A model generated the notes under the pieces. It did no database searches. It was not told the origin of the DNA and saw only the letters and a list, made by a program, of their open reading frames with translations. Positions 1 to 11,871 of a DNA stretch of 11,871 bases are shown piece by piece. A program made the translations under genes and the position numbers. Position 1 is the stretch's first letter; each line of letters opens with the position of its first letter. This DNA comes from an uncultured Rhodospirillaceae bacterium (GTDB lineage: Bacteria; Pseudomonadota; Alphaproteobacteria; RF32; CAG-239): assembly GCA_900313355.1 (NCBI GenBank), contig OMQZ01000153.1:1-11871 (forward strand), written 5' to 3'.

Positions 1-8
1 TATCTCCT

Positions 9-470
9 TTAGTACTCGTATCTATCTTCATTGATAATTACTTGAACCATCCCTGTCGTTTCGTCCCCCCAATAAGCTGTCGCTATTGCTAAAACAGCCT
101 CTTTAGGCAGTCCCTCATAGGTTAACTTAAATGTTGAATTTCCGTCTATTTTAACAACAGACAGTTTCACTTCGCCTTTATAAAGATTTTGAAGTTTTTC
201 TAGATCAACAACCATATGTTTTGGAAAGACATCAGCCTTTATGGCTTGTTTGAGCTCATCTTCGCCAAACGTAAACTCACTGCCGGAGGTTGAAAATAAA
301 GTGCGCAGATTAGTCATAATCTGCACAATTTCATCTTCCGTTTTGTTCACTTTATTTTTTTGCATTGCTTTAGAATAGCCGGCCAAACCGCCGACCGAAA
401 GCACGCCGATGATTGCCAGTACGCCGAGGATTTCAACCATACTTCTGCCATTTTCATGCACTTTTATCAT
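9..470 (-). CDS. Type IV prepilin-like protein (pseudopilin family)
   Basis: The protein starts MIKVHENG followed by RSMVEILGVLAIIGVLSVGG, the layout of a prepilin: a short charged leader ending in Gly, a glutamate at mature position 5, and a hydrophobic helix of about 20 residues. By family knowledge a prepilin peptidase cuts after the Gly and the helix packs into a pilus or pseudopilus core. The usual F-T-L-I-E is replaced by R-S-M-V-E, so methylated Phe1 would be Arg. I chose the ATG at 468-470 because GGAAGG lies about 7 nt upstream and it gives an 8-residue leader. In-frame upstream starts exist (ATGs, and a TTG at 519-521) but have no good ribosome site. The C-terminal domain (about 110 residues, ending EDRYEY) is small and has no cysteine pair; I cannot assign it a specific function. 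No secretion or pilus assembly genes are nearby, so this is an orphan pilin gene. Confidence 0.75.
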   Translation of the reverse strand: MIKVHENGRSMVEILGVLAIIGVLSVGGLAGYSKAMQKNKVNKTEDEIVQIMTNLRTLFSTSGSEFTFGEDELKQAIKADVFPKHMVVDLEKLQNLYKGEVKLSVVKIDGNSTFKLTYEGLPKEAVLAIATAYWGDETTGMVQVIINEDRYEY

Positions 471-507
471 CGCTTTGCCTTCCATAATCATTTTTTTTAA
501 ATGAAGC

Positions 508-523
508 CTTTGCTCTCGCAAAG
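508..523 (-). promoter_or_regulatory. Leader hairpin with GAGA tetraloop upstream of the prepilin gene
   Basis: On the minus strand CTTTGC-GAGA-GCAAAG forms a perfect 6-bp stem capped by a GNRA-type tetraloop. It lies between the predicted transcription start (about 535) and the prepilin start at 470. It could stabilise the 5' end of the message or control translation. That role is inference; only the fold is seen. Confidence 0.45.
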
Positions 524-543
524 CTCCAATTTATATACATATC

Positions 544-571
544 AGTATATATCTTTTTTTAAAAAAGTCAA
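544..571 (-). promoter_or_regulatory. Sigma-70-type promoter of the prepilin gene
   Basis: On the minus strand a -35 box TTGACT (566-571) and a -10 box TATACT (544-549) are 16 bp apart, placing the start near 535. The -35 box directly abuts the U-tract of the cold-shock gene terminator, so the two transcription units are tightly packed. Confidence 0.6.
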
Positions 572-605
572 CAAAAACTGCCTATAACTAAAGTCATAGG
601 CGGCT
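572..605 (-). terminator. Intrinsic terminator of the cold-shock gene
   Basis: On the minus strand a GCCTAT / ATAGGC stem (580-585 with 596-601) is followed by AGTTTTTG. It lies about 25 bp after the stop codon of the cold-shock gene. Confidence 0.65.
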
Positions 606-625
606 TTTGTTTTTAAGGAGGAGAA

Positions 626-829
626 CTATAAAATTTCGATATTTCCGGCGGCAATCCGTCCGCGGTCATTATATGGCTCATAACTGACTTTTTGCCCGTC
701 GACAAGACGGCGTATGCCTTTTTCTTCAAGTTTTGTGATGTGAACAAAAATATCTTTTTCTCCGGTCTCCGGCTCAATAAATCCATATCCTTTTTTGGTA
801 TTAAACCACTTAACAGTCCCAGTGCACAT
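626..829 (-). CDS. CspA-family cold-shock protein
   Basis: This 67-aa protein is a complete cold-shock domain (OB fold) with nothing added. It begins MCTGTVKWFNTKKGYGFI, carrying the GTVKWFN opening and RNP1 (KGYGFI), and RNP2 follows as DIFVHI at about residues 27-32. The family binds single-stranded RNA and DNA through the aromatic residues of these motifs, melting RNA structure and often acting as an RNA chaperone or antiterminator in the cytoplasm. Length is normal for the family. The ATG at 829 has AAAGGA about 8 nt upstream. The gene has its own promoter, a leader of about 55 nt with a palindrome, and a terminator, so it is monocistronic. Whether it is cold-induced cannot be read from the sequence. 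Confidence 0.95.
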   Translation of the reverse strand: MCTGTVKWFNTKKGYGFIEPETGEKDIFVHITKLEEKGIRRLVDGQKVSYEPYNDRGRIAAGNIEIL

Positions 830-860
830 ATACGTTTTCCTTTCATTAAAGTTAAAACTT

Positions 861-879
861 CAGGCCGATCGGCTGCCTG
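861..879 (-). promoter_or_regulatory. Palindrome in the cold-shock gene leader
   Basis: The leader holds a perfect 10-bp palindrome, GCCGATCGGC (864-873), and an alternative stem, CAGGC (861-865) with GCCTG (875-879). It is strikingly GC-rich in an AT-rich leader. It could be an operator, or an mRNA element with two competing folds as known for cspA-type leaders. The role is inference. Confidence 0.4.
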
Positions 880-893
880 TTTCTTACAAAAAC

Positions 894-923
894 TATATAT
901 ATCACTTTGGCTTTTAAAGTCAA
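894..923 (-). promoter_or_regulatory. Promoter of the cold-shock gene
   Basis: On the minus strand TTGACT (918-923) is followed by TATATA at either 16 or 18 bp spacing (896-901 or 894-899). It predicts a leader of about 55 nt before the ATG at 829. Confidence 0.6.
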
Positions 924-971
924 TTAAAAATTGTTAATATATAAAATATTATCTTATTAGTTGTGTATTTT

Positions 972-1262
972 TTAATTCAGCCCTTGTTCTTCCATCATTT
1001 TTTTAATGTATGATATTCTAGATTTCGGGGCTTTACTTTTCTTCACGTATTGCGTTAAGAGAGCCACAATTTGGCTTTGGTATTCTTTTTTTTGATTTGC
1101 AACAACACATAAGCTGTAAACAGCTGCTTCAAAAACCTGTTCGTCTTTGCTGTTTAAGTTTTTGCTGATTTCAAGATATGTCGGCGTAAAACCCTTTTGA
1201 TTTTCTTGATTTTTTGAAAAGCCGTAAACCATATTCCAAAACGATTTTGCTGTTTTTGACAT
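972..1262 (-). CDS. Hypothetical protein, 96 aa
   Basis: I do not recognise this small, basic, probably helical protein. It begins MSKTAKSFWNMVYGF and ends YIKKMMEEQGLN, has one cysteine, and shows no signal peptide or membrane segment. The middle (EVFEAAVYSLCVVANQ-like helix, then a second amphipathic helix with VALLTQYVKK) suggests a compact helical bundle. The ATG at 1262 has GAGG about 5 nt upstream, which supports real translation. It is transcribed divergently from the tRNA-Gln gene with an overlapping -35 region. No strong terminator follows it, only AT-rich sequence running into the cold-shock promoter, so some read-through into that gene is possible. Its codon use and composition match its left neighbours rather than the islet on the other side of the tRNA. 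Confidence 0.65.
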   Translation of the reverse strand: MSKTAKSFWNMVYGFSKNQENQKGFTPTYLEISKNLNSKDEQVFEAAVYSLCVVANQKKEYQSQIVALLTQYVKKSKAPKSRISYIKKMMEEQGLN

Positions 1263-1301
1263 TTATCCCTCTTTTTTTATCAAACAAACCGAATATATCG
1301 T

Positions 1302-1331
1302 AGAATAAAGATATTAAAAAAGATTTGACAA
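1302..1331 (-). promoter_or_regulatory. Possible promoter of the 96-aa gene, overlapping the tRNA promoter
   Basis: On the minus strand TTGTCA (1326-1331) and TATTCT (1302-1307) are 18 bp apart. The -35 box shares 5 bp with the -35 box of the divergent tRNA-Gln promoter. The match is moderate. Confidence 0.4.
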
Positions 1332-1353
1332 GCCATAAAAAAAAGCGTATACA
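1325..1353 (+). promoter_or_regulatory. Promoter of tRNA-Gln
   Basis: A perfect -35 box TTGACA (1325-1330) and a -10 box TATACA (1348-1353) are separated by exactly 17 bp, which puts the start near 1360, about 13 nt before the mature tRNA. Confidence 0.75.
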
Positions 1354-1372
1354 GCTTTCAAGTTTTGATTAT

Positions 1373-1446
1373 TGCTTCATCGTCTAATGGTAGGACAGCG
1401 GATTCTGACTCCGTCAATCTTGGTTCGAGTCCAGGTGAAGCAGCCA
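1373..1446 (+). tRNA. tRNA-Gln(CUG)
   Basis: All four arms fold. The acceptor is 7 perfect pairs (1373-1379 with 1436-1442), followed by discriminator G and an encoded CCA. The D stem is GTCT/GGAC. The anticodon stem GCGGA/TCCGT encloses the loop TTCTGAC with anticodon CTG, which reads CAG (glutamine). The T stem is CTTGG/CCAGG with the loop TTCGAGT. The gene has its own near-consensus promoter and an intrinsic terminator starting right after the CCA. Its last 19 bp are repeated at 1584-1602, and the last 7 bp plus terminator are repeated at 3131-3169, as expected when a tRNA serves as an integration site. Confidence 0.95.
1428..1446 (+). repeat. Att-like direct repeat, copy 1 (inside tRNA-Gln)
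   Basis: The 19 bp AGTCCAGGTGAAGCAGCCA cover the end of the T arm, the acceptor 3' strand and the CCA of tRNA-Gln. An identical copy is at 1584-1602. The 3' half of a tRNA is the classic target of tyrosine recombinases (established knowledge). Confidence 0.85.
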
Positions 1447-1447
1447 T

Positions 1448-1477
1448 AAAAAAGCACCCCTTGAGGGTGTTTTTTTT
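1448..1477 (+). terminator. Intrinsic terminator of tRNA-Gln
   Basis: A run of A, then the stem CACCC (1455-1459) / GGGTG (1465-1469) with a 5-nt loop, then eight T. The A and T runs extend the pairing. The flanking CAGCCAT (1441-1447) and GTGGCTG (1478-1484) are also complementary, making an unusually long inverted repeat. Confidence 0.85.
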
Positions 1478-1603
1478 GTGGCTGATTTATCTTTATGGGA
1501 GAACCAATTCGGAATCGAAGTGTTTGCAGGCAAATATCTGCAAACGCTGAGATCGGGCAAGGCTTTGTTAAAAGCCGAAGCCCAGTCCAGGTGAAGCAGC
1601 CAC
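1478..1603 (+). other. Hairpin-rich non-coding segment, possible structured RNA or att arm
   Basis: Two strong hairpins are visible. The first is an 11-bp stem, 1519-1529 with 1538-1548 (one T-G pair), with an 8-nt loop. The second pairs 1561-1566 with 1571-1576 and is extended by GGGC/GCCC (1555-1558 with 1580-1583) across a small internal loop. The ends GTGGCTG (1478-1484) and CAGCCAC (1597-1603) are exact complements, so the whole segment can close into a three-way junction. I do not recognise an RNA family. No promoter is evident and the tRNA terminator lies just upstream. It may instead be structured DNA at the recombination site. Confidence 0.4.
1584..1602 (+). repeat. Att-like direct repeat, copy 2 (displaced tRNA-Gln 3' end)
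   Basis: This is an exact 19-bp copy of the tRNA-Gln 3' end, preceded by unrelated sequence and not followed by a terminator. It has no 5' tRNA half, so it is not a tRNA gene. It is best read as a right-hand junction left by insertion at the tRNA. Confidence 0.8.
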
Positions 1604-1616
1604 TAATCAAAAATGC

Positions 1617-1886
1617 CTATTTAGTAAATGGTAATCCTTTTTCTTTTTTTCGGATATTTTCTGGTGTAATCGGCACACACCCAGTTGTTTCATCCCACGT
1701 TAAGCAATCATCTCGGCATATTTTTTGTTCTGGATCATAAATTTTTCCTATATCTAAACATCTTGCTTGATTATCAAAAATCAAATAACCCAAAACACAA
1801 ATACTTATGATGCCTATCACGGCTAAAATACCATATAAAATTTTTAAAAAGATTTTTGCTGTTGATTTTGTTTCAGTATTTTTCAT
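1617..1886 (-). CDS. Small membrane-anchored, cysteine-rich protein, 89 aa
   Basis: I do not recognise the family. A charged N-terminus (MKNTETKSTAK) is followed by one hydrophobic helix at about residues 12-36 and then a polar C-terminal domain of about 50 residues. That domain has cysteines at 43, 57, 61 and 70, a spacing that could form two disulfides outside the cytoplasm, and contains YDPEQKIC and CLTWDETTGC. The likely topology is N-in with the C-terminal domain in the periplasm. The ATG at 1886 lies inside the end of the upstream gene (14-nt overlap) and has AAGG about 6 nt before it. The two genes are therefore almost certainly co-transcribed and probably translationally coupled. It is the last gene of the islet unit and ends 15 bp from the displaced tRNA end. 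A partner or immunity role for the upstream product is possible but speculative. Confidence 0.7.
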   Translation of the reverse strand: MKNTETKSTAKIFLKILYGILAVIGIISICVLGYLIFDNQARCLDIGKIYDPEQKICRDDCLTWDETTGCVPITPENIRKKEKGLPFTK

Positions 1887-2397
1887 TTATACCTTCTACC
1901 CTATATGGATTACAAGCTTCTCTTGAATTTTTATATAAACCACTTTTTGCCCTTTGTCTACCGATTTGATTGATTGTTCTATCGTTAATTTTATCTTGAT
2001 ATGCTTGTAAAGGTGATAAACCTTTTCTTATTTGATTATCCCAGAAATCGAATTCTTCTTTCGCATTTCCTATTTTTTCAGCAATTTTTTCTCCTATTCT
2101 ACCTCTTTGCGTTGCTTCATAATTGGCTTTACAATGAAAATAATTATCTCCCTTTACAGTATTATCTCTTTTCATATCAAAATAATTACGAGCCAAATCT
2201 TTTATCGCTCCTACGACTTGTTTTAAAGAAGATTGTTGCGAATTTACTGGTTGGTATTCACTATTAATAATTCTTGTTATTTGGTCTCGCAAAATCTCTT
2301 TTGCTATAAATTTCGAATAATCAATTCCATAAGGATCAATCTGATTTTTGTTGCTCATATATTCTAACAGTGATTTATGTTGTTTTAAAAATGACAT
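1873..2397 (-). CDS. Hypothetical protein, 174 aa, with HCKAN-type motif
   Basis: This is a soluble, mostly helical protein with no signal peptide or membrane segment. The N-terminal half (to about residue 85) is unfamiliar. The C-terminal half begins with YFHCKANYEATQRG (about residues 86-99), then a helical stretch with KEEFDFWDNQIRKG, the pattern NQIGRQRA, and a final C-N-P-Y-R-V-E-G. From memory this order of motifs resembles a small domain found alone or at the tips of some Rhs-type and other secreted effector proteins, where the motif usually reads HCKANCEA. Here the second cysteine is Tyr. I could not verify this similarity. The ATG at 2397 has GGAG about 8 nt upstream and a good promoter at 2435-2463. 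It overlaps the membrane protein gene downstream. Its very low GC sets it apart from the flanks, consistent with horizontal acquisition. Confidence 0.75.
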   Translation of the reverse strand: MSFLKQHKSLLEYMSNKNQIDPYGIDYSKFIAKEILRDQITRIINSEYQPVNSQQSSLKQVVGAIKDLARNYFDMKRDNTVKGDNYFHCKANYEATQRGRIGEKIAEKIGNAKEEFDFWDNQIRKGLSPLQAYQDKINDRTINQIGRQRAKSGLYKNSREACNPYRVEGINEKY

Positions 2398-2434
2398 TTT
2401 ATTACTCCATTTTAAAAATTTATTTTATGTTCTT

Positions 2435-2463
2435 ATTATAAAGGAGTATTCAATTGTTGTCTA
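2435..2463 (-). promoter_or_regulatory. Promoter of the HCKAN-motif gene
   Basis: On the minus strand TAGACA (2458-2463) and a perfect TATAAT (2435-2440) are 17 bp apart. It would drive the two overlapping islet genes independently of the gene at 2486-2959. Confidence 0.65.
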
Positions 2464-2485
2464 TGCCCCATAGCCTGCTAAAATA

Positions 2486-2959
2486 CTAACTTTTGCCAAG
2501 CAAAAGCTTTTTAAATTCACGATTATTTGCTTGCGCTAACTGCCTTAATTTATTTTTCTGATTATGTTCTACATATGGAATTGTCATTTCTCTGGGTTTA
2601 TTTATCAAAAACCAATCTACAAAACTGTTAGCTGTTAAATTTTGATTATTTTGATGAGCTTTCATAAAATAGTCTTTTTGCACGTCGGCAAATTTTTCTC
2701 TGAATTTTTTATATTTACTGTCTCTGCTCATTGCGCCTTTAGATGCTTTTGACCTTTGATGAACTTTTATAACGGCATCTATCGATACTGCGCGCTTTTT
2801 GCACCACTCTGTACGAGCATCAACAAGAATTTCTTGTATTACGGATATTATCTTGTTTTGTAGTTCTTTGTTTTGGTTTAACGTTGGCTCTGCTCTGAGA
2901 AAATTTGCTAATTTGCGTACAGACTTAAACGGCATTAACGCTTCTAAATTATCAACCAT
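2486..2959 (-). CDS. Hypothetical basic helical protein, 157 aa
   Basis: I do not recognise this protein. It has no signal peptide, no membrane segment and one cysteine (EWCKKR). It is rich in Lys, Arg, Gln and Asn and appears fully helical. Noteworthy stretches are a central basic region (about residues 64-90, with KVHQRSKASKGAMSRDSKYKKFREKF), a conserved-looking NSFVDWFLINKPREM, and a C-terminal basic helix with NKLRQLAQANNREFKKLLL. The charge pattern is compatible with nucleic-acid binding, for instance a replication or maintenance protein of the islet, but that is inference only. The ATG at 2959 has a strong AAAGGAGA ribosome site about 6 nt upstream. It lies at the head of the islet's minus-strand genes, separated from the next by 88 bp that contain a separate promoter. 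Confidence 0.7.
   Translation of the reverse strand: MVDNLEALMPFKSVRKLANFLRAEPTLNQNKELQNKIISVIQEILVDARTEWCKKRAVSIDAVIKVHQRSKASKGAMSRDSKYKKFREKFADVQKDYFMKAHQNNQNLTANSFVDWFLINKPREMTIPYVEHNQKNKLRQLAQANNREFKKLLLGKS
2490..2506. other. Inverted repeat at the end of the 157-aa gene
   Basis: CTTTTGC / GCAAAAG with a 3-base loop overlaps the last codons. Read on the plus strand it is followed by CTTTTT, so it resembles a weak terminator for plus-strand transcripts. On the minus strand the following sequence is only moderately T-rich. The function is uncertain. Confidence 0.3.
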
Positions 2960-3031
2960 AAGATTCTCCTTTAAATATATGCTTTATTCTGTATATAGGT
3001 TTGTGTTTAAGTTCACGCAAGCTTTAAAAAA

Positions 3032-3121
3032 TTATATTACTAATCTTTTCCTAACAAAATGGAGTTGTTCTTTAATGGCAATTACCTCGGAGCGATGAGA
3101 TTGTAAAAGTTCGAAGATTGT
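3032..3121 (-). pseudogene. Possible C-terminal remnant of a MerR-like regulator
   Basis: On the minus strand an open frame of about 30 residues ends at 3032: TIFELLQSHRSEVIAIKEQL, then HFVRKRLVI and a stop. The pattern LL-x-HR-x-EV plus a following helix resembles the C-terminal coiled coil of MerR-family regulators. Upstream, the frame runs straight into the tRNA-end and terminator repeat (3131-3169), so the DNA-binding part is missing. If real, it is a truncated gene cut at the right junction of the islet. The fragment is short and the family match is from memory. Confidence 0.25.
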
Positions 3122-3130
3122 ACACTGCGT

Positions 3131-3150
3131 GCAGCCATTAAAAAGCACCC
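3131..3150 (+). repeat. Diverged third copy of the tRNA end plus terminator start
   Basis: These 20 bp match 1440-1459 at 19 of 20 positions (mismatch at 3139 versus 1448). They cover GCAGCCA of the tRNA end and the start of the terminator. The shared sequence continues into the following hairpin and T run. Upstream of GCAGCCA the similarity to the tRNA is lost. Confidence 0.65.
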
Positions 3151-3169
3151 TTTTAAGGGTGTTTTTTTC
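3141..3169 (+). terminator. Intrinsic terminator, probably the original tRNA-Gln terminator
   Basis: A run of A, then CACCCT / AGGGTG around a 4-nt loop, then seven T and a further T-rich stretch. It closely resembles the terminator at 1448-1477 and follows the partial tRNA end at 3131. No intact plus-strand gene precedes it here, which supports the idea that it once ended the tRNA-Gln transcript. Confidence 0.75.
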
Positions 3170-3189
3170 TTTTTTGTAACGAAAAATTA

Positions 3190-3218
3190 ATGACATCTGC
3201 TTCAAAATCTGGTATAAT
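3190..3218 (+). promoter_or_regulatory. Promoter of the 494-aa gene
   Basis: ATGACA (3190-3195) and a perfect TATAAT (3213-3218) are 17 bp apart, and TGG before the -10 gives an extended -10. The start would be near 3226, with a leader of about 25 nt. Confidence 0.75.
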
Positions 3219-3250
3219 GATTTTATGTTGACTTTAAGCGGAGAAAAGCT

Positions 3251-4735
3251 ATGCCGGATAATAAGGAAAAACAAAAGTTAATGCCGACCGTCGATGTTGC
3301 ATATCAAGTAGATACGCTTGATCAACCTTGGCGCAGAGGATTTAAATATGACCGTCAAGACAATCGTATCGACTTTGCGCATGTTCTCGGCGAAGATGAA
3401 ACGAATCGTAAAAATTTTTCAGATGAAAAAATCGTTCATGAGCAAAAACGCCGCACAAATTACCAAAACGGCATTTATGAATATGCTCTTTCGACTGAAC
3501 AGGCTTATAAAGTTTCCATGCATGATCATATTTCTGCAGATATGGCCGAACTTATTGCATTGCGTCAGCAATATCTTGAAAATAAAGATGAATCTGTTTT
3601 TGACGGCACGCCATTTGGTTTTTATGCCGAAGCTCTGAAAACCGGCGAAATCGACCCGACCTCAAAAGACCCTGAGGCTTTTAATAAAGAAATGTCTCTT
3701 ATCGTTAATGGCACGCGCGATAAATATAAACCCTCTTATGCAAATGCGGCTGATGCGACTTTCTTCGGCGAAGATGACGGTGCACACGCTCAATATTATG
3801 ACCAAAATTATCAGCGCGCAAAAAAGATTTGCTATAATATCGGCGGGGTTGATTTTACAAAATATATGGACCATGATGTTGAAATAAGCCAAAACAGCCA
3901 TCTTGATATTTTAGCATATAAAAAAAATTTAACGAATGCGGAAGCTGCCGAACTTTATAATGTTCCGGCTTATAAAGCCGATATGAGCCTCCAGCAATAT
4001 CAAGATTTGGTTCAACAAACGCTTGCCATGAACGAAGGTTATCACTGGGGCGACACTTCTCAAAGCGAATATGAAGGTCAAACGGTCGGCGATGTTTGGA
4101 AGGAATCAATTGCACGCGTTGCGTTAAATCACTCTCCTGATTTAAACCTTGAAAATATTTATCGTGACGGAATGGTCAAATCCGCCTCTCTTGCATCTTC
4201 CATCACAAATGACGTTGCAAGAGAATATCAGAAAAAAGGAATCCCCGTCGGGGTTCAAAATGACGCAGCTTACAACAAAGCCTTAAAAGAACTCTATAGC
4301 GTTTCCTTAGATGGTAAAAATGTTGATGTTTCGGGTATTATCAATCCGCAATATACTGATTTTACGCAATCCATATCCGATGAGGCTCAGGCTGTTCAAG
4401 ATATGAACAAGTGGGCTTTAACGCGTCAACGTGTTTCAAACACCCTTGCCTCTTTTAGCAAAGGTAATGTTCAAAATGAAATTGTTCATCCTCAAGAAAA
4501 TGAAAAAAATAATCATGGAACTCCTTTATATGCACCGCAATCTTCAGATTTTATGCATCGTGTTGTGCCGGATATGACAGGTGACGTCATTGAAAAACCC
4601 GAGAAACAGGATCCAGCCCAAACACTTCTTGAAAAAACAGGGCGTCTTAATCCGCCTAAGGCTCCTGCCGTTTCAAAAATCAGCGACGCACCGGCCTCAA
4701 CTCTTCAGCATATGAGAGAATCTGAAGGCAGATAA
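3251..4735 (+). CDS. Hypothetical soluble protein, 494 aa
   Basis: I do not recognise this protein. It has no signal peptide, no membrane segment and only one cysteine (AKKICYNIGG). It is acidic and rich in Tyr, Asp, Asn and Gln. The N-terminal half carries a Tyr/Asp-rich region around residues 180-215 (QYYDQNYQRA, TKYMDHDVEIS). The middle is mostly helical (LSLQQYQDLVQQTLAMNEG-like, SLASSITNDVAREYQKKG). The last 90 or so residues are Pro-, Asn- and Gln-rich, probably disordered, with a linker-like APAVSKISDAPASTL. This could be a structural, scaffold or secreted-by-other-means protein. The ATG at 3251 has GGAG 7 nt upstream and the promoter is strong, so expression is likely. It stands alone and converges on the exporter operon with only 11 bp between the stop codons and no clear terminator. 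Its composition matches the flanks, not the islet. Confidence 0.8.
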   Translation: MPDNKEKQKLMPTVDVAYQVDTLDQPWRRGFKYDRQDNRIDFAHVLGEDETNRKNFSDEKIVHEQKRRTNYQNGIYEYALSTEQAYKVSMHDHISADMAELIALRQQYLENKDESVFDGTPFGFYAEALKTGEIDPTSKDPEAFNKEMSLIVNGTRDKYKPSYANAADATFFGEDDGAHAQYYDQNYQRAKKICYNIGGVDFTKYMDHDVEISQNSHLDILAYKKNLTNAEAAELYNVPAYKADMSLQQYQDLVQQTLAMNEGYHWGDTSQSEYEGQTVGDVWKESIARVALNHSPDLNLENIYRDGMVKSASLASSITNDVAREYQKKGIPVGVQNDAAYNKALKELYSVSLDGKNVDVSGIINPQYTDFTQSISDEAQAVQDMNKWALTRQRVSNTLASFSKGNVQNEIVHPQENEKNNHGTPLYAPQSSDFMHRVVPDMTGDVIEKPEKQDPAQTLLEKTGRLNPPKAPAVSKISDAPASTLQHMRESEGR

Positions 4736-4746
4736 ATTTCTATCGG

Positions 4747-5844
4747 TTAAACAAGTTTTGTCTTAAATCGTCTGATTGCAAAAAAGGCGACAACAATACC
4801 GCTTGTCACCAAAACGGCGGAATGAGCCGTAAAGTATGCCCAACCGGCTCCTTTTAAGATGATGTTTCTAATCATGTATGTATAGTGTGTTAAGGGGTTT
4901 ACATAACTAATCCATTGTAAGACATCGGGCATATTCTCGCTCGGAAAAATCGTTCCCGATAACATCATCGCCAAAAAAGCCACCATCATCATACCGAGCA
5001 TCGCCTGTTGTTGCGTGTTTGTATATGTTGAAAGCCATATGCCGATGGCACAAGCCGGAATACAAAACATCAAAAATGCCAGAACGAACATCACGAGGGA
5101 GCCCACAAACGGCAGCTTAAATAATATCAATCCGGCTGACAAAACCAATATCATATTAAAAAATGCCATAATGATTGCCGGAATTGTTTTGCCCAAGATG
5201 ATGTCATATTTTGAAATCGGCGCTGAAATCAATGTTTCAATCGTTCCGTTTTCTTTTTCTCTTGTCATAGAAACGGTTGTTAACAACAAAATTGTCATAA
5301 ACACTTGTATCACAATCATCGCCGGAACGAAGAACCATTGCGTGCTCAACTCCGGATTAAACATCAGGCGCACCGTAAATTGAATCGGCAACTCGGATTT
5401 TATGCCGAATTTTTCGTCTCTTAGAACTTGGGTGATGATGCCCCTTAAATATCCGTCAACACTTTGTGCTTGGATAACGTTCGTTGCATCAATTAAAATT
5501 TGGATATTTCCCTCGCCTCGAGCCATTGAGCGCAAAAGCCCGCCTTCCGGCGCAACGATGGCCACATCGGCTTTTCCTTGACTGACCGCAGCCATTGTAT
5601 CCTTTTCCATCGGGCGTACTTTTATAAACCAGCCTGATGCAATCGCGTGGTCATAAATTCTTTCCATCACAAAATCATTCGGCTCAGCATCAACAACAAG
5701 TTTAATGTTTTTTGCCTCCATTGTGATTGCCTCACCGATGATTAATATCTGAATAATCGGCAAAACCAAAATCGCCACAATCAACGTCGGATCACGCCAC
5801 AGTGCAATCAGTTCTTTTTTGATAAATCCTTTCAGCGTTTTCAT
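4747..5844 (-). CDS. ABC-2 type permease, YbhR-like
   Basis: This 365-aa membrane subunit belongs to an ABC exporter of the ABC-2 family. It has one N-terminal membrane helix (about 20-40) after a cytoplasmic stretch with the typical KEL..LWRDP. A large periplasmic domain (about 42-165) comes next, ending FNPELSTQWFFVP, then five more helices from about 172 to the C-terminus. REKENGTIETLISAP (195-209) is the conserved cytoplasmic coupling segment that contacts the ATPase. Length and layout match E. coli YbhR (368 aa by memory). It is the last gene of the operon and starts with an ATGA overlap to the gene before. With the other permease it would form the heterodimeric inner-membrane channel. 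The substrate is not visible from sequence. No clear terminator follows before the convergent neighbour. Confidence 0.88.
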   Translation of the reverse strand: MKTLKGFIKKELIALWRDPTLIVAILVLPIIQILIIGEAITMEAKNIKLVVDAEPNDFVMERIYDHAIASGWFIKVRPMEKDTMAAVSQGKADVAIVAPEGGLLRSMARGEGNIQILIDATNVIQAQSVDGYLRGIITQVLRDEKFGIKSELPIQFTVRLMFNPELSTQWFFVPAMIVIQVFMTILLLTTVSMTREKENGTIETLISAPISKYDIILGKTIPAIIMAFFNMILVLSAGLILFKLPFVGSLVMFVLAFLMFCIPACAIGIWLSTYTNTQQQAMLGMMMVAFLAMMLSGTIFPSENMPDVLQWISYVNPLTHYTYMIRNIILKGAGWAYFTAHSAVLVTSGIVVAFFAIRRFKTKLV

Positions 5845-6962
5845 TCTAATGTCCTTTTGAATTTAATGACACACAATCCTGACAACACACAAAATTGCAA
5901 CAGCAGCACGGCAAACGGTACCCACAAATCCAAAAGCGTGCTTCCTTTTAAGAATTGGTCTCGAACTATTGTAACATAAAATCTTGCCGGAAAAACGGAG
6001 GCAATATATTGAAAAACAGGTGCCATATATTCCACGGGAAAAAATACACCCGAAAAAAGAGACGTCGGCATCAACCCGATTAACGCCGCATATTGAACAG
6101 CAACCTGTTGTTCGTGAGATATGATTGAAATAAACAAACCAAGCGCCAAATAACCTAATATGAACAACAATGTTCCTAAAAGCAGAACCGCAAAATTCCC
6201 CACAAAAGGCACCTTAAAAACCAGTCTTGCCACAACAAAAACAATTAAAAAACCGATTAAGCTCAATAAGGCATATGGCAATAACTTGCCCACAATAATC
6301 TCCGATGATCTGATCGGGGTTGTCAGGAGCATTTCCATTGATCCTTGTTCCCATTCTCGGCATATTGTTAAGGTCGTTAACATAATCGATACAAGCGCAA
6401 TAATAATGGCTGTGATTCCCGGAACGGAAAACCATTGAGAGCTCAGTTCGGGATTAAATAAATATCGCGTCTTAAAACTCAAAAGTTCATCTTTTGAAAT
6501 CGGCACATCTTGAATTTTATAAATTGCATTGACGTTAATCGTGTTTAAATAATTCATCACAGATGATACCGAAGAATTATCCGCACCATCTAAGATAATC
6601 TGAACGGTGCCTGTTCTTTGTGACATAATTTCTTTTTCAAAATCAGGCGGTATGATTAAAAGCATTTTTGCTTTTTCGGCTGTTAGTTCATTCATGCCCT
6701 GCGTCGGTGTCTCAATTTGATATGGCTTGAAATAATTTGAGGAACCGAAGGTTTCAATCAATTTTCGAGAACTTTGCGTTTTGTCATGGTCCATATAAGC
6801 TAAGTTAATGTGCTTGATATTAAACTCGATGCAGTTTCCTAAAATCAGCACAATCAAAAGCGGCAAAAGCAATGCCACCATTAAAGTGAAAGGATCGCGA
6901 AAAATATGCATAAACTCTTTTTGGCAGACGGCCCGCGCTCTAAGCAGTGAAAATTTTCTCAT
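5841..6962 (-). CDS. ABC-2 type permease, YbhS-like
   Basis: This is the second membrane subunit, 373 aa, with the same plan as its neighbour: a cytoplasmic start with CQKEFMHIFRDP, a first helix at about 25-43, a periplasmic domain to about 178 ending FNPELSSQWFSVP, then five helices. The coupling segment is REWEQGSMEMLLTTP (202-216), which is closer to YbhS of E. coli than to YbhR, and the position right after the ATPases agrees with the ybhG-F-S-R order. The two permeases share the FNPELS-QWF-VP motif but are otherwise well diverged, as expected for an obligate heterodimer. Both junctions are 4-nt ATGA overlaps, so the ATPase and both permeases are probably made in matched amounts. Confidence 0.88.
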   Translation of the reverse strand: MRKFSLLRARAVCQKEFMHIFRDPFTLMVALLLPLLIVLILGNCIEFNIKHINLAYMDHDKTQSSRKLIETFGSSNYFKPYQIETPTQGMNELTAEKAKMLLIIPPDFEKEIMSQRTGTVQIILDGADNSSVSSVMNYLNTINVNAIYKIQDVPISKDELLSFKTRYLFNPELSSQWFSVPGITAIIIALVSIMLTTLTICREWEQGSMEMLLTTPIRSSEIIVGKLLPYALLSLIGFLIVFVVARLVFKVPFVGNFAVLLLGTLLFILGYLALGLFISIISHEQQVAVQYAALIGLMPTSLFSGVFFPVEYMAPVFQYIASVFPARFYVTIVRDQFLKGSTLLDLWVPFAVLLLQFCVLSGLCVIKFKRTLE

Positions 6963-7861
6963 CTTTCTTTGCCCTCCACGACGCGCATAAACACATCTTC
7001 GAGCGTCGGATTGATTTCTGAAATATCAAAATTTTTCTTTAAGGTTTTCATCACTTCAGGCTCATCGTTTTTTAAGATTGCATGATAGTGCTGCCCATAA
7101 GGCTCAAAACTTTCAAACAAAGATTTATCCGGCAGCTTTGTATTCACATTTTTCGGCGTTATCAAATAAATCGGTTTGTTAAAACTCTTTTTTTTCAAGT
7201 TTTCGGGCGAATCCAGCGCAATCAATTCACCGGAGCGCATCAACGCAATCCGTCCGCAATTTTCCGCCTCATCCATATAGTGTGTCGTCACAAAAACCGT
7301 TTTTCCGATTGAGGCAAGCTGTCTGATTAATTCCCAAAAGCGAAATCTTGCACTCGGTGCAACACCTGCCGTCGGCTCATCTAAAAAAATAACTTGCGGA
7401 TTGTGCAAAAGCGCCACACAAAGCGCAATTTCCTGCTTTACACCTCCGGGCAGATCTCTCACAATTGTTGATAAGTTTTCTTTAAAATCAATAAAGTTCA
7501 GCAACTTTTCTCTTTGCCGTTCGTATTCTTTATCTTCCAAATGTCTGAGCGTTGCCGCAAAATCCATATTTTCCTTAATTGAAATGCCGTCATAAAGCGT
7601 AAATTTTTGCGACATATATCCAACTTTTTGTTTGATTAAATTTTCTTTTTTGTTTTCAAGAAATATGCCGTCAACCACAACTTTTCCGGAGCTTGGCGTA
7701 AGCAACCCGCACAAAACACGGATTGTTGTCGTTTTTCCGGCACCGTTTGCACCTAAAAAACCGAAAATTTCACCTTTTGAAACGCTAAATGAGACATTTT
7801 TCACCGCATAAAAATCGCCAAATTTGACGCTGAGGTTTTCAACTTCAACAACTTTACTCAT
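6959..7861 (-). CDS. ABC transporter ATPase, equivalent to the second half of YbhF
   Basis: This 300-aa nucleotide-binding subunit has Walker A GANGAGKTT (37-45), Q-loop Q85, a signature that reads LPGGVKQ (137-143) in place of LSGGQ, Walker B VIFLDEP (157-163) with the catalytic Glu, and an intact switch His194 in VTTHYMDEAE. The D-loop reads GVAP, not GVDP. A C-terminal extension (about 225-300) ends NPTLEDVFMRVV, typical of ATPases that work with ABC-2 permeases. In E. coli the corresponding domain is the second half of the fused YbhF. Its Walker motifs and His would pair with the canonical LSGGM of the companion ATPase to form the active ATP site. Its own altered signature faces the other, degenerate site. 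It sits in the cytoplasm on the two permeases encoded next, with ATGA overlaps on both sides. Confidence 0.92.
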   Translation of the reverse strand: MSKVVEVENLSVKFGDFYAVKNVSFSVSKGEIFGFLGANGAGKTTTIRVLCGLLTPSSGKVVVDGIFLENKKENLIKQKVGYMSQKFTLYDGISIKENMDFAATLRHLEDKEYERQREKLLNFIDFKENLSTIVRDLPGGVKQEIALCVALLHNPQVIFLDEPTAGVAPSARFRFWELIRQLASIGKTVFVTTHYMDEAENCGRIALMRSGELIALDSPENLKKKSFNKPIYLITPKNVNTKLPDKSLFESFEPYGQHYHAILKNDEPEVMKTLKKNFDISEINPTLEDVFMRVVEGKER

Positions 7862-8586
7862 TTTAGATTTCCCCTCTTTAAGAAGTATTCGTCAAAATTG
7901 GAAACTTTTTCTTTTTGCAATAACTCTTTGGGTTCGCCCTGACCTAAAACGAGCCCGTTTTCCATCAAAACGACTTCACCGCACCGCTCTGCCTCATCCA
8001 TGTATGCCGTCGTCATTAAAACCAAAATACCGTCTTCAACTGCCGTGTGCAGCATCTCCCAAAATTCACGCCGGCTTATCGGATCAACCCCGTTTGTCGG
8101 CTCATCTAAAAACATAATTTTCGGCGAACGCAAAAGGGCGCACATCAATCCGAGCTTTTTATACATACCGCCCGAAAGTTTTCCGGCCGGCCTGTCTAAA
8201 AATTTTTCAAGTCTTGTTAATGACAAAAGTTCTTGTTTTTTCTTTTCATATACGCTTTTTTCGATACCGTATAAATCTCTGAAAAATTTTAAGTGTTCTT
8301 CTATTGAAAGATCGGCATATAAGCTTTGTGTCTGGGGCATATATGCAATACTGTCTTTGATTTTGTTAAAATCTGTTTTTTGATTATCCAATTGATAGAT
8401 AATACTTCCCTCATCTTTTGCCATCAGCTCAAGCATCAGGCGAAAAAGCGTTGTTTTTCCGGCACCGGCCGGCCCGATGATCCCATAGAGCTTGCCGCTC
8501 TCAAATTTCATCGAAACACCTTTTAAGGCTTCCGTATCCTTAAATTTTTTTTTGATATTTTTAATCTCAATTTCAATTTTATTCAT
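7858..8586 (-). CDS. ABC transporter ATPase, equivalent to the first half of YbhF
   Basis: This is a 242-aa nucleotide-binding subunit. It has Walker A GPAGAGKTT (38-46), Q85, canonical signature LSGGM (137-141), Walker B KIMFLDEP (156-163) and D-loop GVDP. The switch histidine is missing: the motif reads MTTAYMDEAE with Ala194. The motif positions match those of the companion ATPase almost residue for residue, which supports an origin by duplication. In E. coli YbhF both domains are on one chain; here they are separate genes overlapping by ATGA. I placed the start at the ATG at 8584-8586, inside an ATGAATAA overlap with the adaptor gene, because the protein then starts MNKIEIEIKN like its relatives. 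A TTG six codons upstream (8604) is possible but less likely. No separate ribosome site is seen, so translation is likely coupled. Confidence 0.92.
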   Translation of the reverse strand: MNKIEIEIKNIKKKFKDTEALKGVSMKFESGKLYGIIGPAGAGKTTLFRLMLELMAKDEGSIIYQLDNQKTDFNKIKDSIAYMPQTQSLYADLSIEEHLKFFRDLYGIEKSVYEKKKQELLSLTRLEKFLDRPAGKLSGGMYKKLGLMCALLRSPKIMFLDEPTNGVDPISRREFWEMLHTAVEDGILVLMTTAYMDEAERCGEVVLMENGLVLGQGEPKELLQKEKVSNFDEYFLKRGNLK

Positions 8587-9316
8587 CGAAAAGCGCGCTT
8601 TCAATCGTCATTCCCGATTTGAGCATTAAATCCTTGTTTTCAAATTTGACCTTAACACCATATACAAGGCGTGTGCGCTCTTCTCTTGTTTGCACGTTTT
8701 TAGGTGTAAATTCAGCTTCTTCATTTATTTTCAAGATTTTTCCGACAAACGGTTTGTTTTTTGCTTCGGGCAAATATCCGATAATTTTTTGCCCGACTTT
8801 TAAGCGGTAGAGTTCGTCGTGCGGCACATAAAAATATGCCCAAATATCATACGGATTTGCAATTGAAACCAAAGATGCGCCCTGGGCAACAACTTCGCCT
8901 TCTTCTCTGAATTTTGTAATAATCATTCCCGAAATCGGCGCCTCGACTTCACACCATTTTAACTTCAAGTCGTTATCCTCTTTGTTTCGCGCCAAAACAT
9001 CAAATTGAGCTTGCGACATATGCCCCTTTTGAACCAACGCAAGAGCCCTTTGGTAGTCATTATCAATTTGATGAGATAAAACCTTATAATTATCGCAGCT
9101 CATTTCTAAAATAAGGTCGCCCTTTTGAACCATATCCCCTTCCTCAACCGGAAAATTTGTGATGTCGGAGGCTATTTTAGATGAAACGATTACTTTTATT
9201 GTTTCAAGTGTTCCGGCATAAACGAAAGGCTGTTTTGAAAGCCAATAGCGATATGTTCCGTAACCCATCAGCAAAATAATCGCCGCTATCGGAAGAAATA
9301 AGTTTTTTTTATTCAT
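8579..9316 (-). CDS. HlyD/YbhG-type periplasmic adaptor (membrane fusion protein)
   Basis: The protein has 245 aa. One N-terminal membrane anchor (about 6-24) is followed by the first half of a biotinyl-lipoyl-like domain (about 44-73, VEEGDMVQKGDLIL), a helical hairpin (about 76-120), the second lipoyl half (122-150, EAPISGMIITKFREEGEVV) and a beta-barrel domain to the end. The segment AEFTPKNVQTREE (201-213) is a hallmark of this adaptor group. Such adaptors link an inner-membrane exporter to the outer membrane. It is much shorter than YbhG (about 330 aa by memory), and nearly all the loss is in the hairpin, of about 45 residues here. No outer-membrane TolC-like gene is in the window. The ATG at 9316 has a near-perfect AGGAGGT ribosome site, the strongest in the operon, and overlaps the upstream gene by ATGAATAA. 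Confidence 0.9.
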   Translation of the reverse strand: MNKKNLFLPIAAIILLMGYGTYRYWLSKQPFVYAGTLETIKVIVSSKIASDITNFPVEEGDMVQKGDLILEMSCDNYKVLSHQIDNDYQRALALVQKGHMSQAQFDVLARNKEDNDLKLKWCEVEAPISGMIITKFREEGEVVAQGASLVSIANPYDIWAYFYVPHDELYRLKVGQKIIGYLPEAKNKPFVGKILKINEEAEFTPKNVQTREERTRLVYGVKVKFENKDLMLKSGMTIESALFDE

Positions 9317-10196
9317 GCAAACCTCCTCTATATATTTCTCGTCCGCTCGTTATCACAGATTGTGGCTGTGTTTTGAACGGATCATAAAAAATTTTAATAC
9401 CTGCTTTTTGAGCCAGTTCTTCGGCTTTTTTAAAGTTATCTCCCAAGCGCTCAACGTTGTGAGCATCATCGCTGATTATCACCGGCACATTATATTCTGC
9501 CAAAAGCGATAATATTCTTTTGCTCGGATAGGGTTCGTCATATAAAAGCTTAAAACCGCTTGTGTTGATTTCTGCTCTTGCGCCGGCTTTTGCGATTGCT
9601 TCAACGGTTTGACGCTCTTCATCAATCCATTCTTTTTCAAGCCCTAAACCGACTTTTTTCATTAAATCCAAATGTGCTAAAAAATTAAACAAACCGCTCT
9701 CTGCCGCAGCCCTAACGTTTTGATAATATTTGTGCAATAAAAGATTTTGTTCCTCTTTTGAAGCATTCTTTAAGTCATGCGTGTTATAAAGCGTGTCTCT
9801 TGTCAAAACAAAATGCGCCGAACCGATAAGATAATCCGGTTTTAAGATTTTAACAGCTTTTTTGAAACCTTCCTGCCACTCGTCGCCTCTGAAAAAATCA
9901 ACTTCCATGCCTTTATATATCGTAAAGCCTGTTTTTTCTTTCAGTTCATCAACTCTTTCGTAATGTGCTTGAAATTTTTCAACAGCCTCATCAAATGAGG
10001 AAGAATATATTTGCTCATATCCCCCTTTTAGTGCATATTGATACATCTTTGTGGATTTGATGTTTCGATGAACAATAAAATGATTTGAAAAACCGATTTT
10101 TGACCACCCCAAAGCACGAGCCTGTTCCACCATCTGCGCTTCCGTATTGCGCCCGTCAAAACCAAGCGTGTGCGTGTGGAGTGAAAAATTTTGCAT
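9309..10196 (-). CDS. PHP-domain phosphatase, histidinol-phosphatase-like
   Basis: This 295-aa metal-dependent phosphoesterase is of the PHP family. The metal-binding residues appear in the expected order: HTH at 7-9 (LHTHTLGFDG), His39 in GFSNHF, Glu98 in KGMEVDF, His128 in IGSAHFV, His175 in LAHLDLMKK, and D-A-H at 244-246 in ISDDAHN. This motif order is that of HisK/HisJ-type histidinol phosphatases, which remove phosphate from L-histidinol phosphate in histidine synthesis. No other his genes are nearby, so the true substrate may differ. A related phosphoesterase role is possible. I start it at the ATG at 10194-10196, which overlaps the gltX stop as TGATG. The in-frame TTG one codon upstream is unlikely. 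The length is slightly above the usual 260-280. It is cytoplasmic, and its link to the exporter downstream is unknown. Confidence 0.85.
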   Translation of the reverse strand: MQNFSLHTHTLGFDGRNTEAQMVEQARALGWSKIGFSNHFIVHRNIKSTKMYQYALKGGYEQIYSSSFDEAVEKFQAHYERVDELKEKTGFTIYKGMEVDFFRGDEWQEGFKKAVKILKPDYLIGSAHFVLTRDTLYNTHDLKNASKEEQNLLLHKYYQNVRAAAESGLFNFLAHLDLMKKVGLGLEKEWIDEERQTVEAIAKAGARAEINTSGFKLLYDEPYPSKRILSLLAEYNVPVIISDDAHNVERLGDNFKKAEELAQKAGIKIFYDPFKTQPQSVITSGREIYRGGLHE

Positions 10197-11518
10197 CAAG
10201 CTTTGTTACCTTTCAAACGCTCATAAGCTTTTTTATAACCGATCAGCGGTAGCAATGTTTTTAATTCCGGCCCTGATGCTTCGCCCGTTAAGGCCAAACG
10301 AATCGGGTGGAACAAATCTTTTCCTTTTAAGCCGGATTTTGCTTTTACCTCACCGAGCCATACGTTAAACGTTTCGTCCGTCCACGGCTCTTTGGGCAAC
10401 AAATCAGCGGCCATATCCGTTAATGTTTTATTTTCAACTTGAGGTGAAACTTCGCCGTTGCAAATATTGTTCCAAACATCAACATCTTCGACTTTTTCCA
10501 AGTTTGCTTTCACATCATTCCAAAATTCTTCATTGACTTTGAGGCGATCTTTGACAGCATCGAAAGGCATTGTGTGAATATGTTTCACATTAAAGTGTTT
10601 TAATTCTTCAACATCAAATTTCGGTTGAGCACGTCCGATTTTTGAGAAATCAAGCGTTTGAGCCAAATCTTCCAAGCTGTAAAAAGAACGAATCTCTTCT
10701 GATGTGCCGAGTTTTGCAAGATAAGAACAGATTGCCATGTTCTCTACTCCATCGGCCCTTAATTCACGGACGCCTAAACTTCCTAAACGCTTTGAAAGTT
10801 TTCCTTCCTTGCCCGTCAATAACGGCAAGTGTGCAAATGTCGGCACAAAACCGCCGATTGCTTCAAACATTTGAATTTGAGAGGCCGTGTTTGTCACATG
10901 GTCTTCACCGCGCAAAATGTGCGTGATACCGAAATCAGAATCGTCAATAACAGACGGCAAATGATACAGATATGAGCCATCTTCGCGAATAATAATCGGA
11001 TCGCTCAAATTCGATGCCTCATATTTCACCTCACCTCTGATTGCATCATTCCATTTGATTTCGCCATCATTTAATTTGAAACGATAGTGCGGTTTTCGTC
11101 CCTCTTTTTCAAAATTTGCAATATCTTCTTTTGTGTAGTTCAAAGCCTGACGATCATAGATCGGCGGCAATCCTTTTGAAAGGGCGCGTTTGCGTTTAAA
11201 CTCTAACTCTTCCGGTGTTTCATAACAAGGGTAGATTCGCCCGTCTTGAATGAGTTTTTCCGTAACTTCTTTATAACGTTCAAAACGTGCGGATTGGCGC
11301 GCTTCGGAAGACCAAACAAGTCCAAGCCATTTTAAGCTTTCACGCATCGAATCTTCATATTCTTTTTTAGAGCGCGCAAAATCCGTATCATCAATACGGA
11401 GCATAAACTCGCCCCCCATTTTTTTGGCCCAGAGCCAGTTAAAAAGAGCCGTTCTGGTGTTTCCGATATGCATATGTCCCGTCGGCGAAGGGGCAAAACG
11501 AACTTTTATCTTTGTCAT
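10196..11518 (-). CDS. gltX: Glutamyl-tRNA synthetase (GltX2-type)
   Basis: This is a 440-aa class I aminoacyl-tRNA synthetase that joins glutamate to tRNA. It opens with VRFAPSPTGHMHIGNTRTAL, holding the HIGH-type motif HIGN (17-20). The KMSKS-type motif is KLSKR (240-244). It also has the RIDDTD segment, YPCYETPEELEFKRKRALSKG (96-116) and LRGEDHVTNT. RIDDTD instead of RIEDTD and the PCYET segment resemble the second, shorter GluRS (GltX2) of Alphaproteobacteria (comparison from memory). Many of these bacteria lack glutaminyl-tRNA synthetase and charge tRNA-Gln with Glu first, then amidate it through GatCAB. A GltX2 may specialise in tRNA-Gln, but specificity cannot be read here. The ATG at 11518 has AAGGA 8 nt upstream. 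It is the first gene of the seven-gene operon. Confidence 0.95.
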   Translation of the reverse strand: MTKIKVRFAPSPTGHMHIGNTRTALFNWLWAKKMGGEFMLRIDDTDFARSKKEYEDSMRESLKWLGLVWSSEARQSARFERYKEVTEKLIQDGRIYPCYETPEELEFKRKRALSKGLPPIYDRQALNYTKEDIANFEKEGRKPHYRFKLNDGEIKWNDAIRGEVKYEASNLSDPIIIREDGSYLYHLPSVIDDSDFGITHILRGEDHVTNTASQIQMFEAIGGFVPTFAHLPLLTGKEGKLSKRLGSLGVRELRADGVENMAICSYLAKLGTSEEIRSFYSLEDLAQTLDFSKIGRAQPKFDVEELKHFNVKHIHTMPFDAVKDRLKVNEEFWNDVKANLEKVEDVDVWNNICNGEVSPQVENKTLTDMAADLLPKEPWTDETFNVWLGEVKAKSGLKGKDLFHPIRLALTGEASGPELKTLLPLIGYKKAYERLKGNKA

Positions 11519-11550
11519 TTATTTATCCTTTATTTTGCAAAATTGAGCTC

Positions 11551-11578
11551 ATTATATAGACTTTACTTTTAGATTCAA
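11551..11578 (-). promoter_or_regulatory. Promoter of the gltX-exporter operon
   Basis: On the minus strand TTGAAT (11573-11578) and TATAAT (11551-11556) are 16 bp apart, giving a leader of about 25 nt. I see no other promoter or terminator between the seven genes, so this one probably serves all of them. Confidence 0.65.
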
Positions 11579-11615
11579 CAAAAATTTTCATTGTTCTTTT
11601 AACTGCTTGAAACTT

Positions 11616-11642
11616 AAAAAAGGCCTCTTTTTTCAAGAGGCT
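11616..11642 (-). terminator. Intrinsic terminator after the partial gene at the right edge
   Basis: On the minus strand GCCTCTT / AAGAGGC (11635-11641 with 11623-11629) forms a 7-bp stem followed by a T run. It separates the partial gene from the gltX promoter. Confidence 0.8.
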
Positions 11643-11649
11643 TTCTGTT

Positions 11650-11871
11650 TTATTCGTAAAGCTTAATTCCTTTTTCTTTCAATTCTTTCTTGCCAATAGG
11701 ATCATATTGGTAGTAATATATAAGTTCACGTTTGTTAATATTATTAGCATCAACGAAACCTTCTGGAACACCCCATAAAATTGAAATCGGCCATGTCAAA
11801 AGATTTCCCGCTCCGTAAAGCCAATGATTGCTTTCTGCACCATTGCCTGAGGCCAAATAAAAATTTCCAAA
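11650..11871 (-). CDS. C-terminal part of an unrecognised protein, cut by the window edge
   Basis: An open frame of 73 residues enters from the right edge (FGNFYLASGNGAESNHWLYG) and ends LKEKGIKLYE at 11650. The true start lies outside the window; internal TTG codons should not be taken as the start. The segment contains a hydrophobic, Trp-rich stretch (GAGNLLTWPISILWGVPEGFV) followed by a charged tail (YYYQYDPIGKKELKEKGIK). This might be a membrane-associated or lipoprotein-like C-terminus, of the kind seen in small YceK-like envelope lipoproteins, but the resemblance is weak and I do not assign a function. A terminator follows directly. Confidence 0.6.
   Translation of the reverse strand, partial: FGNFYLASGNGAESNHWLYGAGNLLTWPISILWGVPEGFVDANNINKRELIYYYQYDPIGKKELKEKGIKLYE

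Follow-up and report, generated by a model that had tools for sequence, protein, structure and literature searches.

An RtT-like tail element behind tRNA-Gln and a predicted toxin-immunity islet at its tRNA-end copy in an uncultured Rhodospirillaceae bacterium

The stretch of DNA analysed here, referred to below as the window, comprises 11,871 bp from the genome of an uncultured gut Rhodospirillaceae bacterium (GTDB lineage Bacteria; Pseudomonadota; Alphaproteobacteria; RF32; CAG-239), namely positions 1 to 11,871 of the forward strand of contig OMQZ01000153.1 in assembly GCA_900313355.1. It contains a gene for tRNA-Gln(CTG), followed by a short structured unit that closes with a repeat of the tRNA 3' end, here called a tail element, and by a small AT-rich islet coding for a predicted toxin-immunity set. 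Genomes used for comparison carry G numbers, G000 being that of the window, and loci extracted from them carry L numbers. The following features were distinguished.

1373..1446, plus strand: tRNA-Gln(CTG), predicted by ARAGORN and matched by the Rfam tRNA model with 57.7 bits; the sole tRNA gene of the window.
1428-1446, plus strand: copy 1 of the tRNA end, the last 19 bases of tRNA-Gln(CTG).
1447..1477, plus strand: first terminator-like hairpin with T run, read from the sequence and paired in the RNA fold.
1478..1602, plus strand: RtT-like tail element of type C, composed of an inverted tRNA 3' end that includes G-U pairs, then a hairpin core, then a direct copy of the 3' end.
1584..1602, plus strand: copy 2 of the tRNA 3' end, from T-loop to CCA, with 19/19 identity to 1428-1446; presumed insertion site of the islet.
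1603..3137, no strand assigned: presumably inserted islet of 1535 bp, bounded by GCAGCCA at 1596-1602 and 3131-3137.
1617..1886, minus strand: membrane protein of 89 amino acids (ORF1), predicted immunity protein, with four conserved Cys after a hydrophobic stretch.
1873..2397, minus strand: prok-SAA (lipocone) effector of 174 amino acids, with a short N-terminal module and an SAA domain at residues 58-174.
2486..2959, minus strand: ORF3, helical partner of 157 amino acids upstream of the effector (AlphaFold; profile matches in relatives).
3035..3130, minus strand: islet right end with the conserved peptide HRSEVIAIKEQLHFVRKRLVI; similar ends occur in G006 (two) and G003.
3131..3169, plus strand: copy 3 (GCAGCCA) and second terminator, presumably the displaced one of the tail element; 31/39 identity to 1440-1478.

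Apart from the pair 1428-1446 / 1584-1602, no 19-mer occurs twice in exact form in the window, and 200 mononucleotide shuffles of the window yielded one exact 19-mer repeat in total. Copy 3 agrees with copy 1 at 19 of 20 positions (1440-1459 and 3131-3150). The GC content of the islet is 30.7%, against 39.1% for the part of the window outside 1373-3169, and no integrase or other recombinase was recognised among its open reading frames with Pfam and PHROGs. A preliminary description of this DNA had pointed out three graded copies of the tRNA end, an islet more AT-rich than its flanks and the lack of an integrase in it, all of which hold.

The whole unit after tRNA-Gln, including the first terminator, covers 1447-1602 (156 bp). 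The RNA fold of 1478-1605 has an energy of -57.4 kcal/mol (z -6.86), a value reached by none of 200 shuffled sequences, and in the fold of the unit the start of the element pairs with the tRNA-end copy, partly via G-U pairs. A covariance model of type C units, designated R2, matches the window at 1477-1606, the window being one of its training sequences; on the type C alignment RNAalifold retained only 4 pairs. At E<=0.001, R2 detected the unit at 13 of the 30 tRNA-Gln loci of the family, window included, 8 of the 13 being training loci of R2, while the match is weak in L018 and partial in L009. Among these loci are those of the same-genus genomes G001, G003, G004 and G010, along with loci from other genera, and second or partial second units were found by R2 at tRNA-Gln in L008, L010, L012 and L021. 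A whole-genome search of four genomes with R2 gave 5 matches in three of them, four of which are covered by the training set: one is the window, three others follow tRNA-Glu, tRNA-Leu and tRNA-Gln, and the remaining one, on G000:C151, comes after an exact tRNA-Glu end, the tRNA gene itself being absent from the 4 kb retrieved.

Several relatives carry other genes after the tRNA-Gln unit, and in G004 a chromosomal gene is found there. Because homologous units stand at tRNA-Gln in relatives with other genes behind them, we read the 156-bp unit as a resident structured tRNA-tail element, older than the islet. It had at first been taken for a younger insertion separate from that of the islet, which conflicts with its presence behind tRNA-Gln in islet-free relatives (the same four genomes of the genus and other genera) and with the comparable units that follow many other tRNA genes.

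A common plan was seen behind tRNA-Gln and other tRNAs of the family: the tRNA is followed by a terminator, an inverted copy of the tRNA 3' half, a T-stem copy, a hairpin core and a T-loop-to-CCA copy, often closed by a second terminator. For a survey of tRNA genes, 126 tRNAs with at least 400 nucleotides (nt) downstream were taken from G000, the same-genus G008, G118 and G163, and the last 18 nt of each tRNA were searched for, with up to 3 mismatches, within 2.5 kb downstream. An own-end copy was found for 41 of the 126 tRNAs, or 40 after dropping L225, where the copy is a neighbouring tRNA (G000 4/21, G008 10/31, G118 18/40, G163 8/34), and 32 of the 40 copies finish 150-260 nt past the tRNA. 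The first 18 nt of the tRNA, used as a control, gave 2 hits, one being a neighbour tRNA and the other an empty pattern at a contig edge; an internal tRNA stretch gave 3, one of them the neighbour tRNA. L214 was kept, the thousands of 5'-end 'copies' there being the product of this empty pattern, as the tRNA starts at the contig edge. The inverted copy was less often clear: at 30 of the 126 tRNAs its score was more than 2 above the highest of 50 shuffles. Relatedness extends to the cores of different tRNAs, one single-linkage blastn cluster holding 39 of 47.

In L214 (G000:C184) the tail copy lies just 91 nt past tRNA-Arg(CCG), with the inverted piece and the second end present and the core missing; it is perhaps a deleted unit. 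Three contigs of G000 (C66, C72 and C102; L166, L167 and L173) end 0-6 bases past a tRNA 3' end, as expected if repeated tails break the assembly.

The units were further described by an alignment of type A, the commonest type, which contains 19 of 20 selected units from 47 in all, and by a structure of four helices, two of them obtained with RNAalifold and two drawn by eye from single folds. In this structure 87.6% of cells are paired, compared with 31-37% when the partners are slid, and changes on both sides occur in 65 cells versus 22 in shuffles; further pair types are no more numerous than in shuffles (29 versus 27.6). Since the structure was drawn from the same sequences, these covariation figures lean in its favour. 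A covariance model built from the aligned type A units (R1) gave 53 matches in four genomes. Against an expected share of about 0.8%, 40 of them follow a same-strand tRNA at a distance of up to 600 nt, in 36 cases of 23-51 nt; without the 17 training sequences, 23 of 36 matches are within 600 nt after a tRNA. Among the 13 matches that do not follow a tRNA, 11 adjoin a tRNA 3' end copy with at most 3 mismatches in 15, a three-mismatch match being weak evidence, and 9 keep the copy at 2 mismatches or fewer. At E<=1e-5, R1 matched in 143 of 152 genomes of the family, representing all 16 of 16 genera. A class-wide draw of 240 gave 6 with an R1 match, three of them in the family. A strong R1 match (1.4e-21) at a contig start in a genome from another family of the class (G340:C8:14-149) may reflect transfer, contamination or wider spread.

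The repeats behind Escherichia coli tyrT have been a curiosity for decades. Likeness of the tail elements to these RtT repeats was suspected before R1 was run on E. coli, and the training set of R1 has no E. coli sequence. In 100.5 kb of E. coli, R1 gave four matches behind tyrT/tyrV and one 34 nt behind lysV, with E values from 1.8e-6 to 2.6e-3, the sole further match having an E value of 3.3. The Rfam family RtT (RF00391) marks the same five stretches, with boundaries within 4 nt. Copies of the tRNA end are located at +178, +356 and +534 behind tyrV and at +156 behind lysV; the latter stretch (L322:3360-3485, E. coli K-12) is recognised as RtT at gathering score, and its copy of the lysV 3' end is exact. 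Like RtT, the tail elements of the family lie directly 3' of the tRNA, include an inverted 3' half, a T-arm copy, a hairpin core and a T-loop-to-CCA copy, and occur in tandem copies; unlike RtT, the type A elements stand behind many kinds of tRNA, in 143 of 152 genomes. Judged from sequence comparison, the tail elements found here are an architecture of the kind described in E. coli, occurring behind many tRNA genes in the family. Since roughly one in three surveyed tRNA genes is followed by this architecture, with ends matching each tRNA, it offers many natural replicates for the study of its function and spread. Among the matches listed in a search of the open-access literature, none dealt with the occurrence of RtT-type elements across alphaproteobacterial tRNA genes. 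According to one report (PMC4986893), the transcripts of tyrT and of further tRNAs release RtT RNAs.

The unit of the window corresponds to RtT in position, lying on the same strand directly after the tRNA and ending in a copy of the 3' end of that tRNA. The Rfam RtT family as a direct label for it was rejected: the window gave no RtT match at E<=1 in positions 1-5000, and on the scanned alphaproteobacterial loci no unit reached the gathering score of RF00391 (45 bits), the best and sole match, in L049, having 29 bits.

The genes of the islet are arranged on the minus strand in the order ORF3, effector, immunity. The initial impression that only genes of unknown function are present has to be revised, since the protein encoded at 1873-2397 belongs to the Pfam family PF00277 (SAA; E 4.3e-19) and matches animal SAA chains in the PDB (up to 2.5e-9). 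The motif sNxxGR described for the prok-SAA clade (PMC12419801) reads INQIGR in this protein; N143 and R147 are invariant in the SAA alignment (A6), and N is preceded by I where the motif has a small residue. Proteins of PF00277 above the cut-off were found in 71, and matches of ORF3 in 55, of the 152 family genomes. In the 89-amino-acid protein, Cys 43, 57, 61 and 70 are invariant across 19 aligned sequences (A5), and the four-Cys membrane gene adjoins SAA genes in relatives. Extra tandem copies of it beside SAA genes, resembling orphan immunity genes, are present in L127 and L034. In the sections of a report on lipocone proteins that deal with them (PMC12419801), prok-SAA domains are predicted to be toxins, with an action of lipocone toxins at the membrane or periplasm, and a four-cysteine immunity family is listed. 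The islet agrees with the systems outlined there in having SAA as the C-terminal effector domain and an adjacent four-Cys membrane protein, and differs from them in its helical partner ORF3 and the short shared N-terminal module. The islet is thus predicted to encode a lipocone toxin-immunity set.

ORF3 is predicted to be all-helical (AlphaFold pLDDT 88.5, pTM 0.57); no PDB fold match with E<=0.001 and no supported Pfam family were found for it, and its sequence matches in the PDB have E values of just 0.033-0.056. Among 10 chosen effectors located beside ORF3, the SAA domain was detected in 3, and Tlde1, a VgrG3-like lysozyme and SLT in 1 each, the remaining 4 having no Pfam match at E<=0.01. 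The genes after ORF3 in relatives have an N-terminal module in common, as judged by eye from translations, and residues 1-43 of the window effector match L085 at 49%; a small protein with a hydrophobic stretch often trails these effectors in relatives. Because a common N-terminal module is combined with differing C-terminal toxin domains, the effector loci look like a polymorphic toxin system with the cell envelope as its target. Delivery by a type VI secretion system was set aside, VipB being matched in 0 of the 152 family genomes. A phage origin was likewise rejected, with 0 relatives in viral contigs for the ORF3 profile and 2 distant ones for the SAA profile; none of ORF1, SAA and ORF3 was confidently matched in PHROGs, and the PADLOC defence library gave nothing convincing. 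At islet right ends (window 3035-3130, L279 and L273) the conserved C-terminal peptide (HR.EVIAIKEQ-like) runs into the CAGCCA end.

The islet sits exactly between the tRNA-end copy of the unit and the second terminator. The corresponding junction without the islet, in the order tRNA, terminator, unit, tRNA-end copy and second terminator, is found in L009, L011, L023, G003 and G010; the preliminary description had expected an empty site to join the tRNA end directly to the terminator, and in these islet-free relatives the unit lies between them. Its proposal of a 1.5-kb insertion at the tRNA stands in so far as the islet lies between tRNA 3' end sequence and a terminator, and needs correction as to the site, which is the second copy in the unit and not the tRNA.

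These data make it likely, in our opinion, that a toxin-immunity islet entered at the second tRNA-end copy of an RtT-like tail behind tRNA-Gln. Before this event the locus would have consisted of tRNA-Gln, its terminator and an RtT-like tail ending in a T-loop-to-CCA copy, and read-through transcription would produce a folded RNA with CCA at its end. Working in trans on tRNA 3' ends, a recombinase would have inserted the islet at the CCA end of the second copy, duplicating the target GCAGCCA and displacing the second terminator 1.5 kb downstream. With insertion at this point, it follows that the tRNA is intact and the terminator moved. The SAA protein may attack lipid-linked envelope intermediates of rival cells, with the four-Cys protein guarding the producer cell and ORF3 aiding export or storage of the effector. 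Toxin cargo at a duplicated tRNA end would represent a testable route for small effector cassettes to settle without harming the tRNA.

Integration sites at tRNA genes were reportedly treated by Williams in 2002. In G005 a large serine recombinase gene (L278:264-1886), XisF-like at a score below the cut-off, abuts the 3' end of tRNA-Gln, which makes its product a candidate for the enzyme behind islets at this tRNA. G118 has an integrase domain 1.1 kb past tRNA-Gly(CCC) and, 16 kb on, a tail element with exact tRNA-Gly ends on its flanks, so that the region G118:C3:91908-108200 (L191, L330) is likely to be a 16-kb island at tRNA-Gly(CCC). Because recombinases at tRNA ends occur in the family, as in G005 and G118, mobilisation of the islet in trans is plausible. 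Cargo integrated at an RNA gene is also described for the ssrA islands of Dehalococcoides in part of one report (PMC3146451); the islet of the window differs in its size of 1.5 kb, in that no recombinase was found in it and in its location at a secondary copy within a tail element.

Several observations weigh against the history preferred here. Taken as plain sequence, the window's inverted tRNA copy lacks significance, with a score of 8 against a shuffle maximum of 11, and it is visible only when G-U pairs are counted. R1 does not match the type C unit of the window at E<=10, nor does R2 match the E. coli stretches at E<=5, and because neither model cross-matches, the unit is, on the sequence evidence, like RtT in its position and anatomy, while its scores do not make it a member. 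On its right side the islet has a repeat of just 7 bp and a similar terminator, compared with 19 bp on the left, and no exact same-species empty site is at hand. The islet-free G004 also has no counterparts of the downstream genes 3251-9316 at this locus. Near tRNAs, loci with SAA or ORF3 show an enrichment of only about twofold: with the window's own excluded, 11 of 58 contain a tRNA, versus about 5 expected from tRNA density. Finally, on contig C15 of G006 a unit and an islet are found together, flanked by CAGCCA, and the 6 kb retrieved there contain no tRNA gene.

Because both parts occur jointly in G006 and the retrieved stretch lacks a tRNA gene, a reading was kept in which positions 1447-3137, unit plus islet, integrate at CAGCCA as a single cassette, arrays accumulating behind tRNA-Gln. 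The G006 stretch is colinear with the window at 1464-1602 (74%), 1675-1769 (68%) and 2045-3152 (84%), comprising the unit, immunity, SAA and ORF3; it is located about 0.6 kb from the contig end, and beside it lie the right end of another islet and a fragment of an Mpi-type-like serine recombinase. The presence of two units about 1 kb apart in G010 is in line with such arrays. However, G003 carries a different gene after the same kind of unit, G004 has a unit without the islet, and no such islet was noticed behind units at many tRNAs, although the stretches after each unit were not surveyed. The tRNA-Gln of G006 is itself cut by the end of contig C11, leaving the start of an array unseen, and for this reason C15 may be the far part of an array. 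Taken together, we regard integration as a single cassette as unlikely.

The tails could also have arisen by local tandem duplication and recombination, the islet being caught by chance between short repeats with no site-specific enzyme involved. This would agree with a second terminator that is nearly identical to the first in many of the units inspected, and with the lack of a visible recombinase in the islet, but it does not account for the similarity of cores at different tRNAs. Moreover, the fact that different genes follow the same tRNA end in relatives suggests a targeted process, and chance capture is judged improbable. An old 1.5-kb insertion at the tRNA followed by a younger 156-bp insertion with a new terminator would fit the likeness of copy 1 to copy 2 in its left part and to copy 3 in its right part, but has very little probability, given that relatives from several genera have the unit at tRNA-Gln but not this islet.

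Beyond the preferred entry of the islet at the second tRNA-end copy, a more general role of RtT-type tails may tentatively be considered, doubtful as it is at present: they could serve as folded landing pads, somewhat like the attC sites of integrons, in which decoy tRNA ends take up trans-mobilised toxin cassettes and form small arrays, while the tRNA stays whole.

Downstream of the islet, positions 3251-4735 of the window contain a gene for a protein of 494 amino acids without a Pfam match. Its relatives differ in length and mostly share just the first 220 or so residues, and it perhaps represents another variable effector family.

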